A DNA stretch of 64,000 nt from Methylomonas koyamae (GTDB taxonomy: Bacteria > Pseudomonadota > Gammaproteobacteria > Methylococcales > Methylomonadaceae): positions 930,001-994,000 of the forward strand of contig NZ_AP019777.1 of NCBI RefSeq assembly GCF_019669905.1. Direction: 5' to 3'. Each line of letters starts with the position of its first letter. Positions within the stretch are counted from its first letter, which is position 1. Below the pieces are notes generated by a model that saw only the letters and a list, made by a program, of their open reading frames with translations, made no database searches and had not been told where the DNA came from. Positions 17,169-19,508 of this stretch are shown here, one piece after another. The position numbers and the translations under genes were made by a program.

Positions 17169-17712
17169 AGCAATACCCGTTTGCTTATATGTAGTTTGGG
17201 TATTGAGCATGTCCAGAGCGTGCTTGTGCTTCGACAAGCTCGGCACTAACGGTCCAAATACCTAAAGGCCGGATCAATAAATAGTGCAGTGGGTGTCGAG
17301 AATTCGGGAGGGTTTTAGTCCCGTATGCCGCGCCGAGCACCGGAAGGTTTGAGGCGTAGGGTGGGCACAGTTTTTGTGCCCACACCGAAAACAGGTTTTG
17401 TGTCGCTATCGCGACGGATTAGTTAGACGTCGGGTCTCGGCCCGACAGCCGAGATACTTTTCTTTGCTTGTCCAAAGAAAAGTATCCAAAAGAAAAGACA
17501 CCCGGATGCCGCTTTTTCCCTGCGCTCCGTTGCGTTTATCGAGGGTCGGCAGAAGGGGCTTCCCAGCCCCTCCGCCGCCGCGCCGCGTCCATGCGGCGCC
17601 CCTGCGGGCGGTTCTCGAGAAACGCAACGGTGCTCGGCGCGGCATACGGGAAAGGGCTTGGCGATAGCAGAAGCCGTTTAATCGATTTGATACTTGAAAT
17701 AGGAGAACCACC
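17169..17712. other. Non-coding gap between nifX and the DUF269 gene
   Basis: No credible gene. It holds a short dispersed motif near 17215-17250 (containing TGCTTCGACAAGCTCGGCAC, a common intergenic repeat core) and copy A of the large hairpin repeat (17319-17651). The ribosome site for the next gene (GGAG near 17701) lies at the right end. I see no sigma-54 element here. Confidence 0.8.
17319..17651 (+). repeat. Large multi-hairpin repeat, copy A
   Basis: 333-bp element bounded by perfect 24-bp inverted repeats (17319-17342 and 17628-17651). Inside, in order: GTGGGCACA stem (17361-17383), GTCGC/GCGAC (17402-17415), GTCGGG/CCCGAC (17429-17446), a 14-bp stem with loop CTTGTC (17453-17486), then an outer long stem GTTGCGTTTATCGAG (17529-17543) with its partner at 17614-17628 enclosing AGGGGCT/AGCCCCT (17554-17571) and CGCCGC/GCGGCG (17581-17598). 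Confidence 0.88.
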
Positions 17713-18186
17713 ATGTCCCAACCCGCACTTGTCGTCGAAGCCGGCGATCCCTTGATGACTTCGGACATCGTCGTCGAAATGCTGAAGCAGCTTCGGGCGA
17801 TGGATACCTACGATACCTACGAAGGCTGGTCCGAGGAAAAAATCATCGACCCTTTGATTATGACCAAGGAACGTAAACGCGAGATTCCTATCGTCGGCGA
17901 CCCTGACGAAATCACGCTGGCCCGGGTCAAGGCGTACTACAACGCCATTGCTTCGCTGGCGGAAAAACGCACCGGTTTGATGGCGGTGCCGGTTATCAAT
18001 ATCACCCACGAAGGTTTCGGCCGGGCGCTGGTGCTGGTCGGCAAATTGATTGCGGTCGATAAAGTGCTGCGCGACGTGCATCGCTTCGGTTTCGGCAGTT
18101 TGGAAGAATTGAACGAGAAGACCGAAAAGATTCTGGAAAAGGCCGTGAGCTTGATTGAGCAATTTAAAGAAGTGGCCGAAGCTTGA
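17713..18186 (+). CDS. NifX-associated protein (DUF269)
   Basis: Conserved nitrogen-fixation accessory protein of 157 residues found next to nifX in many diazotrophs; the exact role is not established. It is mostly helical. The family core IVEMLKQLRAMDTYDTYEGWSEEKIIDPLIMTKE, EITLARVKAYYNAIASLAEKRTG and the C-terminal VLRDVHRFGFGSLEELN helix region are all present. The ATG has a GGAG site. It is followed after eight bases by a second conserved small nif gene and then ferredoxin III, the usual order in Azotobacter-type clusters. Confidence 0.9.
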   Translation: MSQPALVVEAGDPLMTSDIVVEMLKQLRAMDTYDTYEGWSEEKIIDPLIMTKERKREIPIVGDPDEITLARVKAYYNAIASLAEKRTGLMAVPVINITHEGFGRALVLVGKLIAVDKVLRDVHRFGFGSLEELNEKTEKILEKAVSLIEQFKEVAEA

Positions 18187-18194
18187 GGTGAAAT

Positions 18195-18410
18195 ATGAGC
18201 GACGAAGACATTAAAGCCTTGGAAAAAGAAGTGAAGAAAACCAAACGCCTGGCCAACGAGGCGGCGTCGGTGCTGCACGACCTGATCGAAGACCGGTTGC
18301 CGGATGCTTACGGCGAACTGATGGGGGTGGCGCAAGCTACCTATGACGCCTGCAAGGCCTGGGACGAAGCCAACAAGAAATTCTTGGCGGCCAGCACCAC
18401 TTCAGCCTAG
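18195..18410 (+). CDS. Nif-associated CCE_0567/DUF683 family metalloprotein
   Basis: Short helical-hairpin protein of 71 residues. The pattern LEKEVKKTKRLANEAASVLHDLIEDRLPDAYGELMGVAQATYDACKAW is that of the DUF683 family, small coiled proteins whose structural members bind a metal through acidic and His residues. The GAGGTGAAAT site before the ATG and the 8-base spacing on both sides place it firmly in the DUF269-fdxB run. Function is unknown; the constant association with nifX genes suggests a part in cofactor or electron-carrier handling. Confidence 0.88.
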   Translation: MSDEDIKALEKEVKKTKRLANEAASVLHDLIEDRLPDAYGELMGVAQATYDACKAWDEANKKFLAASTTSA

Positions 18411-18418
18411 GAGGAGCG

Positions 18419-18730
18419 ATGAGCGAATTTGTAACCGGCGTAACCTTCGGCGGCAGCGTCTGGACGCCGTCCTACGTGACCGACATTAACCAGCGCGCCT
18501 GCATCGGCTGCGGCCGTTGCTTCAAGGTTTGCCCGCGCGACGTGTTCGATTTGGTCGAAAAAGACGAGGCGCTGGCCGACGCGGCCGACGACGATTACGA
18601 AGATTTCGAGGACGACGACAACAGTATGGTGATGAGCCTGAAAAACGCAGCCGACTGCATCGGTTGCGAGGCCTGTTCCAAGGTTTGTCCGAAGGATTGT
18701 TTTACGCATCAGCATAAGGCTGCGGCTTGA
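18419..18730 (+). CDS. fdxB: Ferredoxin III, nif-specific, 2[4Fe-4S]
   Basis: Electron carrier of 103 residues. Two cluster motifs are present: Cys28-Cys31-Cys34-Cys38 followed by Pro (CIGCGRCFKVCP) and Cys80-Cys83-Cys86-Cys90 (CIGCEACSKVCP). Between them lies an acidic insertion (DAADDDYEDFEDDD) typical of the nif FdxIII/FdxB type. The opening VTGVTFGGSVWTPSYVTDIN is also family-specific. A GGAGGAG site precedes the ATG. It ends the DUF269-DUF683-fdxB block; a repeat-filled gap of 808 bases follows. Confidence 0.95.
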   Translation: MSEFVTGVTFGGSVWTPSYVTDINQRACIGCGRCFKVCPRDVFDLVEKDEALADAADDDYEDFEDDDNSMVMSLKNAADCIGCEACSKVCPKDCFTHQHKAAA

Positions 18731-18743
18731 TTGCTTGATTTGA

Positions 18744-19034
18744 GCGTAGGGTGGGCACGGTTTTTGTGCCCACGCGGTGAGGGAGATGTGTCGCTGTCGC
18801 GACGGTTGTTTTGTATGTCGGTTCGCGGACCGACAACCGCGATACTTTTCTTTGCTTGTCCAAAGAAAAGTATCCAAAAGAAACGACACCCCGATGCCGC
18901 TTTGATCCTGCGCGCCGCAGCGTTTATCGAGGGTCGGCAGAAGGGGCTTCCCAGCCCCTCCGCCGACGTGCGGCATCCTTGCCGCACCCCTTCGGGCTGT
19001 TCTCGATAAACGCTACGGTGCTCGGCGCGGCATA
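18744..19034 (+). repeat. Large multi-hairpin repeat, copy B
   Basis: Same module order as copy A but without the left 24-bp terminal repeat. Stems: GTGGGCAC/GTGCCCAC (18751-18773), GTCGGT/ACCGAC (18817-18834; one pair changed on both sides relative to copy A), the identical 14-bp stem (18841-18874), GTGCGGC/GCCGCAC with loop ATCCTT (18968-18987) and the long stem AGCGTTTATCGAG with CTCGATAAACGCT (18919-18931, 19002-19014). Ends in the shared CGGTGCTCGGCGCGGCATA. Confidence 0.88.
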
Positions 19035-19185
19035 GGGGGATTTGTCTACTACGCAGGATTGAACGAAGCATGGGATGCTGCCGACTATAGGCGGCGCAGC
19101 GTTCGCGACCGATGCGCTTCACTGCGTTCAGCACATCCTACATTTTGATTTTTTGGTTGGGCAGCTTAGCGGCTGATGGTTTTTG

Positions 19186-19508
19186 TCCCGTATGGCGCGC
19201 CGAGCACCGGAGCTTTTGAACGGATCAGCCCGTAGGGGCGATGCAGGGATGCATCGCGTTGCCGAAGGGGCAGGAAGCCCCTTTCGGCAACCCCGTTCAA
19301 AAGCTTCGGAGCGCAGGGAATAAGCGGCATCCGGGGCGCCTTTTCTTTGGATACTTTCTTTTGGCGACGCACAAATTCGTCTGGAACGAATTTGAACAGC
19401 CGGTAGGCTGGCCCGAAGGGCGAAAACCATGGATGGTTTTCGTAGCGAAAGTATCTCGGCCGTCGGGACGAGACCCGACTTTAAAATATCCGTCGCGATA
19501 GCGACACC
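19186..19508 (-). repeat. Large multi-hairpin repeat, copy C (inverted)
   Basis: Reads on the minus strand. It keeps the outer terminal motif (19186-19209), GTCGC/GCGAC (19492-19505) and the GTCGGG/CCCGAC module, but its long stem is AGCTTTTGAACGG with CCGTTCAAAAGCT (19211-19223, 19293-19305), and the ATCC-loop hairpin is GCGATGC/GCATCGC (19238-19257). It has an extra insertion with a CTGGA-loop hairpin (19372-19394) and a palindrome at about 19422-19443. Confidence 0.85.

Follow-up and report, generated by a model that had tools for sequence, protein, structure and literature searches.

Folded repeats at the nif cluster and beyond it

The window analysed here is a stretch of 64,000 nucleotides from Methylomonas koyamae (contig NZ_AP019777.1, positions 930,001 to 994,000 of the forward strand), whose nif cluster carries three copies of a large folded repeat, A, B and C. 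End A (17400–17650, + strand) lies between nifX and a DUF269 gene. Ends B (18788–19039, + strand, complete) and C (19187–19507, − strand) lie between a 4Fe-4S ferredoxin gene and a 2Fe-2S ferredoxin-like gene, where together they make up a convergent pair of structured ends of 720 bp (18788–19507). A sequence-only reading of the window had noticed the three repeats, and the stems and loops that it quoted are present in the sequence where it placed them. The long stem is GTTGCGTTTATCGAG/CTCGAGAAACGCAAC in A, with one mismatch, AGCGTTTATCGAG/CTCGATAAACGCT in B and AGCTTTTGAACGG/CCGTTCAAAAGCT in C, the partner having changed to match and, as had been claimed, with no mismatch in B or C; the hairpin with an ATCC-type loop is CGCCGC/GCGGCG in A, GTGCGGC/GCCGCAC in B and GCGATGC/GCATCGC in C; and GTCGGG/CCCGAC becomes GTCGGT/ACCGAC in B.

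Read from outside to inside, an end consists of a boundary, (T)GTGTCGC, hairpin a (GTCGC TnnC GCGAC), a T-rich spacer, modules b and c, and a 3′ half made up of a closing stem (TGCCGC/GCGGCA), the long stem and three hairpins. In module b, the loop of the GTCGGG/CCCGAC hairpin is complementary to the bases directly after it (TCTCGG/CCGAGA, TCGCGG/CCGCGA or TCCCGC/GCGGGA); with hardly any linker between them, the two pairings probably exclude each other instead of coexisting as a pseudoknot. Module c is ordered as Y arm (for example CTTTTCTTTG), loop (CTTGTC), R arm (CAAAGAAAAG), linker, third strand (CAAAAGAAA) and GACA, and this last element pairs back to the loop. End B displays the whole series on the + strand: hairpin a (GTCGC TGTC GCGAC, 18790–18803) forms the outer boundary and is followed by the T-rich spacer; module b (18817–18842) carries the GTCGGT/ACCGAC hairpin, whose loop TCGCGG pairs with the next CCGCGA as an alternative hairpin or pseudoknot; module c (18841–18888) comprises the Y arm (18841–18854), loop (18855–18860), R arm (18861–18874), mirror third strand (18875–18884) and a GACA (18885–18888) that pairs with the loop bases TGTC; and the 3′ half (18889–19039) holds the closing stem, the long stem and three hairpins with the loops TTCC, ATCC and CCC/GGG. 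Module c of A (17453–17500, + strand) has its Y arm at 17453–17466, the loop CTTGTC, its R arm at 17473–17486, the mirror third strand and GACA. The c hairpin of C is interrupted by an inserted hairpin block of roughly 70–80 nt (about 19370–19446). Blocks of small hairpins, several of them with ATCC-type loops, also break into some other ends at varying points (loci L040, L036, L034 and L045), as if a smaller element had entered the larger one.

The same reading had started the element at 17319 and had given A perfect terminal inverted repeats (TIRs) of 24 bp. The inverted match (17319–17342 with 17628–17651) is indeed perfect; its left arm belongs to the 3′ end of another copy, truncated and inverted (17300–17352, − strand), and is absent beside the orthologous A in M. 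koyamae SM2 (L235); the match is not the element's terminal repeat. The element proper begins at hairpin a (17400, 18788 and 19507). A hairpin resembling a repetitive extragenic palindrome (REP), GTAGGGTGGGCAC..GTGCCCAC, stands at 17356–17383 and 18746–18773; it is found just upstream of eight of the ends located by genome BLAST, occurs elsewhere too, and near 3.426–3.428 Mb (L040) flanks two open reading frames (ORFs) that are presumably RAYT-like, judged by eye rather than by a family search. Long ORFs also traverse the ends themselves (17374–17667, 18731–19009 and 19241–19501); these look spurious and may be annotated elsewhere as hypothetical proteins. In related genomes, a unit with much changed stems occupies the orthologous place of B and C in both Methylomonas sp. 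WSC-6 (L183) and M. koyamae SM2, and end A is present in SM2 and missing at the orthologous site in WSC-6.

The repeat extends well beyond the three copies first noticed. A BLAST search of copy B against its own genome (5.1 Mb, two contigs) gave 53 match pieces, merged by hand into at least 39 places for this module of about 250 nt, a lower bound with 40 of 71 candidates scored. Thirty-two, among them some that carry insertions or lack part of the 3′ end, are complete or almost complete and were used in the first alignment; two more are identical to others through segmental duplication, and five are partial. With 36 of the 39 places located elsewhere in the genome, the link to nif seems incidental. 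The segmental duplication (L037 and L046, at 2.266–2.277 and 4.682–4.693 Mb) carries some ends that are identical across both of its copies, and one that differs (2270583 vs 4688384).

A model of the 5′ half matches 59 of 274 genomes drawn from the class and 22 of 299 drawn from the phylum, 21 of these 22 belonging to the same class, Gammaproteobacteria, inside which GTDB places the betaproteobacteria. The module-c pattern, scanned across contigs, recurs at no fewer than 120 loci, among them Methylomonas, Xanthomonas, Dyella, Lysobacter, Variovorax, Paraburkholderia, Polaromonas, Thiobacillus, Aeromonas and Pasteurellaceae; the matches listed also include single contigs labelled Clostridia, Desulfobacterales, Desulfobulbus, Cystobacterineae and UBP11. 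Phage records yielded no match to the repeat, and 13 of 72,556 plasmid records match partially. Rfam placed nothing in the window above its gathering threshold except one tRNA, which lies elsewhere than the copies, and no description of the family was found among the open-licence papers listed by our searches. Our detector for the ends returned 305 matches in loci chosen for the element and none in 0.89 Mb of block-shuffled sequence, both strands counted.

Covariation and a mirror third strand

Our comparison of the copies shows that folding is conserved in the ends more strongly than sequence. In the 29 copies without insertions in the 5′ half, 98.1% of the cells of that half are paired and 91 have changed on both sides, compared with a mean of 26.5 after shuffling; sliding the partners by 1–3 columns leaves 36–47% paired and 1–9 double changes. 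The sequence-only reading had named genome-wide covariation beforehand as the place where its idea of selected folding could fail, and there paired changes exceed both the slid and the shuffled controls. The 3′ half (27 copies) has 47 predicted pairs, 19 of them with two-sided changes. One-sided standard pairs are scarce beside two-sided ones: 0 vs 54 in the nested pairs of set A1, 3 vs 37 in the b-loop and c-loop pairs, and 17 vs 149 in set A2, where a single poorly aligned pair accounts for 16 of the 17. Folded as single-stranded DNA (ssDNA), B reaches a z score of −9.15.

Module c extends this beyond the one genome. Among the matches listed, a pattern scan of genome contigs gave 114 distinct module-c sequences, and the last four bases of the loop pair downstream in 99 of them, at positions that the pattern does not fix (shuffled mean 20.7, maximum 31). 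The outer stem is Watson–Crick paired in 111 of the 114 at pair 1 and 103 at pair 3, with only 74 at pair 2. G-T pairs account for 4 of 456 cells in the main register of the loop pairing. RNA helices, by comparison, usually pass through many G-U intermediates.

Two arm types predominate, and the third strand nearly always mirrors the R arm. A pattern scan that permitted four third strands per arm returned 133 matches, of which 132 are mirrors, one of the 133 keeping an intact mirror beside a broken stem. When the segment L3 was left free and sites were anchored on the closing G-C pair, 171 sites were obtained; 32 were dropped for a non-purine L3 and 11 for a short one, and 112 of the 128 counted are exact mirrors over 8 nt, compared with 2.1 expected from shuffled L3 letters. 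An earlier unconstrained test, which had a register fault, gave 13 exact mirrors and 7 exact direct copies at 188 sites, the mirror being better in 88, equal in 78 and worse in 22. Two other roles for the third strand fared poorly: pairing with the partner end is ruled out, as 9 of 14 pairs share their arm type, and mere avoidance of the R arm is weakened by other arm types (AAGAGAAA, mirrored in 6/6) and by all-A cases.

A Y-R-R′ order with mirror symmetry is described as the signature of the class II purine-motif intrastrand triplex (PMC4666352), and a Y arm, an R arm and a 3′ third strand mirroring it are all found here. On the strength of its covariation, module c is thus best read as a putative triplex of this class in which the apical loop pairs past the third strand, a predicted triplex-pseudoknot. 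Triplex formation itself we put forward as a hypothesis, because the published G/C-rich motif, which has been linked to genome instability, gave no in vivo footprint in the account of it that we cite (PMC4666352). Module c resembles the class II motifs of Holder et al. 2015 (PIT elements, BoxC and TMECO) in the order Y-loop-R-linker-R′, in the antiparallel, mirror third strand, in the G.G-C and A.A-T triplets and in occurring in many copies in proteobacteria, a likeness drawn from sequence. It differs from TMECO, which is G/C-rich and short (three 9-nt blocks), in its A/G-rich arms, in the loop that pairs past the third strand, in arm types that are swapped with covariation of the third strand, and in sitting within paired ends of about 250 nt. 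The G/C-rich TMECO/BoxC pattern, CCCTCNCCC..GGGNGAGGG..GGGNGAGGG, is not matched by the arms, and among 218 ends it lies just outside only 6, inside 3 and farther out at 1, too few to build on. At a few ends such motifs adjoin hairpin a directly and in the same orientation (L083, 1655–1700; the flanks of L044 and L045).

The sequence-only reading had proposed selection on a folded RNA or single-stranded DNA. A folded single strand is well supported, and of the two, ssDNA is favoured: the scarcity of wobble pairs and a mirror third strand that would fit a purine-motif triplex, which according to Holder et al. RNA cannot adopt (PMC4666352), together point to DNA.

Convergent units with changing interiors

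Ends tend to come in inverted pairs. In contig loci that were not chosen for pairing, and among the matches listed, neighbouring ends within 2 kb are convergent in 42 cases (including one, in L150, that is a lone hairpin counted on each strand), tandem in 8 and divergent in 4. A wider count within 4 kb (73 convergent, 20 tandem, 6 divergent) includes loci fetched because they were paired and leaves out L041 and L049–L078, and the count within 2 kb is used instead. The convergent arrangement places hairpin a on the outside, with a median spacing of 502 bp. Since neighbouring ends are mostly convergent, the usual unit is an end, an interior and an inverted end, with interiors of about 0.1 kb to several kb. 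The earlier proposal that A is a non-autonomous mobile element, which had rested on its supposed TIRs, survives in this altered form, the convergent pair of copies exemplified by B and C. Two inverted mini units of about 85–100 bp, with outer modules only, stand at genome positions 3440449 and 3443723 (L041) and are probable deletion derivatives.

Convergent pairs that enclose ORFs of at least 100 aa lie in the M. koyamae genome at 157–160 kb (site U1), 273–275 kb, 1.066–1.070 Mb, 1.897 Mb, 3.918–3.920 Mb and 4.537 Mb (site U6), and pairs enclosing ORFs are found in other families too. The left flank of a further site, U2, found no match in other genomes among the matches listed, and the comparison between genomes is thus that of U1 and U6. 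U1 was followed in 37 genomes of the genus, our own included (G000): 15 are occupied and 20 empty, as called from the match table and, for 11 of the 20, also read in sequence; two fall into neither group, one being split between contigs and one rearranged. From left to right, every occupied locus (15/15) runs from a + end to a − end, with a third end in four. In 7 of the 15 the right junction matches ACACAAATTAACAGGTTACAA exactly or differs from it by single bases, and the others have a longer or altered spacer, in a comparison that did not capture two left junctions and one right junction.

The DNA between these retained ends differs. With the ends masked, gene-length similarity among the U1 interiors is confined to three genomes (G274, G298 and G302; 186–411 aa at 91–95% identity in the best frames), and other matches span at most 60 aa, mostly near the inner edge of the right end. 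Three close relatives on short branches (G275, G279 and G280) carry different genes at U1, and clustering of the ORFs from the loci read, spurious ones included, leaves 39 without a relative. Cargo is poorer in GC than its flanks in 15/15 loci at U1 (averages of 0.43 vs 0.54) and in 6 of 9 at U6 (0.46 vs 0.50). Matches in Pfam and PADLOC include an EcoRV endonuclease with its methylase, an Mrr-type nuclease, PDC-S14, PDC-S19 (DUF3644) and Septu PtuA. Pfam matched 13 of 40 proteins at E 0.01 or better, four of the 40 coming from other families; PADLOC, covering 20 proteins of the 38 listed, gave 5 strong and 2 weak matches. The DUF3644 cargo protein occurs in 1 of the 37 genomes. At U1, then, it is clear that the ends stay while the interior DNA turns over, and that species carry different accessory genes, some of them antiphage. 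The same pattern holds in part at U6, which is empty in one further genome (G288). Outside the genus, no congeners of G126 and G094 usable for site comparison were found, and G170 is without the unit of G022, in sequence too diverged for a clean junction.

The ends themselves also change by blocks. When orthologous ends are compared, neighbouring parts are unchanged around c modules that differ in their entirety, from stem and loop to third strand and partner, and around 3′ halves that do so too. Recombination between copies is therefore likely, and some of the within-genome covariation may stem from block replacement rather than stepwise change. Left and right 3′ halves resemble each other somewhat more within a unit than between species (0.820 vs 0.724). 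Judged by sequence, such block exchange would fit recombination within the ends.

A proposed bipartite unit and its competitors

Taken together, we favour the view, at a probability of roughly 55%, that A, B and C are ends of bipartite chromosomal units, non-autonomous and recognised by their fold, whose interiors are exchanged between ends that are kept. The fold would form when the strand is single, during replication, transfer or DNA uptake, and would serve as the recognition feature of these units, which would spread like very large elements of the REPIN (paired REP) or MITE (miniature inverted-repeat transposable element) type, moved in trans by an enzyme; the original spread, at least, would need one. 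Turnover would then proceed by recombination within the shared ends, a cassette exchange resembling that of minimal mobile elements (MMEs) and equipped with dedicated homology arms. Kept ends around differing interiors argue for exchange rather than for repeated insertion.

Several observations weigh against this view. No transposase or recombinase common to the interiors was present among the ORFs read. Empty sites in relatives, which the sequence-only reading had suggested looking for, do occur (A in WSC-6; U1 in the 20 genomes above), yet their junctions are too diverged to read a target-site duplication (TSD): none was found, the flanks of the U1 empty sites that were read being only 76–84% alike, and no clean strain-level empty site was met among those read. 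On a tree with weak support, no fewer than 3 changes are needed to explain the occupancy of U1, 2 of them forced by well-supported branches. At U6, both ends are detected in 7 of 14 loci, one in 3 and none in 4, so other inserts also land there. Cargo was not seen to move between sites, as the relatives of PDC-S14 checked elsewhere have no ends, and left and right 5′ halves show no greater likeness within a unit than between species (0.825 vs 0.833). As for the fold, the number of further pair types in the 5′ half does not exceed that in shuffles (16 vs 16.9), and pair 2 of the outer c stem is recurrently C-A or A-C (35/114; contig loci L119–L238). The mirror rule fails for the arm core AAAGAAAG (0/6 exact mirror, 3/6 direct) and for two rarer arm cores (0/3 mirror), and Holder et al. 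report, in the account of TMECO cited here, no stable triplex in vivo (PMC4666352). Finally, a RAYT-like gene, considered as a lead to a mobilising enzyme, is immediately flanked by REPs of its own in 9 of the 10 copies examined and may, because of that pair, be just cargo.

That gene occurs at 30 loci among the matches listed, 19 of them with 80% identity or more to the query and 11 with 46–61%. Ends, hairpin a or a piece of an end lie nearby in 14 of the 19 close copies (10 by the strict detector) and in 0 of the 11 distant ones. Its Pfam match to Y1_Tnp is weak (E 0.001 and 0.004 in two copies, none in a third), and we retain it as a lead only.

The strongest competitor, though an improbable one, holds that the ends are passive bystanders, carried along, or acting as insulating terminators, while homologous recombination in the flanking genes exchanges the DNA between them. 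The flanks of U1 are conserved genes, as are those of the MMEs of Neisseria in the description that we draw on (PMC3898611), and the four U6 loci with inserts lacking detected ends speak for it as well. Against it stand the ends found in all 15 occupied U1 loci despite their differing interiors, the near-constant right junction in 7 of them, and the same ends bounding cargo at other sites here and in other families. Our units and MMEs are alike in that one locus receives different gene cassettes, defence genes being among the cargo here. They differ in their borders: MMEs are described as lying between conserved genes, and the variable part of our units is enclosed by dedicated structured ends, which are found again at several sites and across several families; the cassette difference is seen between species, not strains, at U1 and partly at U6.

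Two further explanations are each unlikely. If the ends were RNA elements (terminators, stabilisers of mRNA or processed small RNAs at gene ends), their pairing would be selected in RNA. The T-rich tracts after hairpin a and the b′ hairpin would suit this, as would the intergenic position of the window copies and the 11 terminator-like sites between 17150 and 19600, against 3.8 (standard deviation 1.8) in shuffles, three of the 11 being inside genes. The rarity of one-sided, wobble changes, a mirror strand fitting a triplex stated to be impossible in RNA (PMC4666352) and the lack of any Rfam match above threshold but the one tRNA tell against it, and inverted pairing and cargo turnover are left unexplained.

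Equally doubtful is an ordinary MITE or REPIN, moved by a DDE or Y1 transposase through hairpin a, with incidental inner structure and cargo that inserted later. Among the matches listed, most convergent pairs are spaced at about 0.4–0.65 kb; hairpin-a-like palindromes also stand alone near a unit site in G170; the mini units of L041 would be outer-module derivatives; and the RAYT-like gene lies inside or beside many units. Yet neither a cognate transposase nor a TSD was found in the ORFs and empty sites read, and the inner modules b and c are conserved together with hairpin a. REPs are, moreover, described as 20–40 bp long (PMC3733652), far shorter than these ends of about 250 nt. Our units share with REPINs, with the RAYT/REPtron arrangement and with TIRtrons an inverted pair of palindrome-bearing non-coding ends, a REP-like outer hairpin and a RAYT-like gene often nearby. 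They are unlike REPINs in their long, multi-module ends, in the accessory genes inside and in a RAYT-like gene with REPs of its own, and a GTAG/CGTC tag is not established. TIRtrons are described as RAYT-like genes between long inverted repeats (PMC3733652), and the comparison is by description, not by TIR sequence. With MITEs the units share a non-autonomous body, inverted ends and sometimes passenger genes; they are unlike MITEs in that no transposase, TSD or parental insertion sequence was found in the sequences read and in ends conserved as folds more than as sequences. Mobile insertion cassettes are likewise non-autonomous, with inverted ends and sometimes passenger genes.

Least probable is that no selection on folding exists and that template switching at quasi-palindromes, which yields paired changes without intermediates just as observed, keeps the arms complementary together with gene conversion, for even with modules swapping blockwise at orthologous ends, template switching gives inverted rather than mirror repeats, and the third strand mirrors the R arm across several arm sequences, the 4-bp loop pairing covaries outside the palindrome, and the module-c pattern recurs over beta- and gammaproteobacteria.

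Beyond the bipartite unit, a bolder and distinctly more tentative proposal is that these repeats form a new cassette platform, in which paired ssDNA triplex-pseudoknots would define, protect and exchange foreign, partly antiphage cassettes at fixed sites in beta- and gammaproteobacteria. Their ends would be read by a dedicated ssDNA-binding recombinase, making them an inverted-pair counterpart of integron attC sites, which are linked to recombination and conserved as ssDNA folds rather than as sequences. They are unlike attC sites in standing in inverted pairs, not direct arrays, in their predicted triplex-pseudoknot and in having no integrase in the interiors read.

If this is true, the ends would provide, to our knowledge, the first evolutionary covariation evidence for a selected purine-motif DNA triplex in bacteria. 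Coordinated change across three strands, together with a covarying pseudoknot in more than 100 sequences, implies a triplex here. Between close species the accessory genes, some of them for defence, change inside borders that stay, and this points to a chromosomal exchange platform, which searches based on genes would miss because its ends encode no protein.

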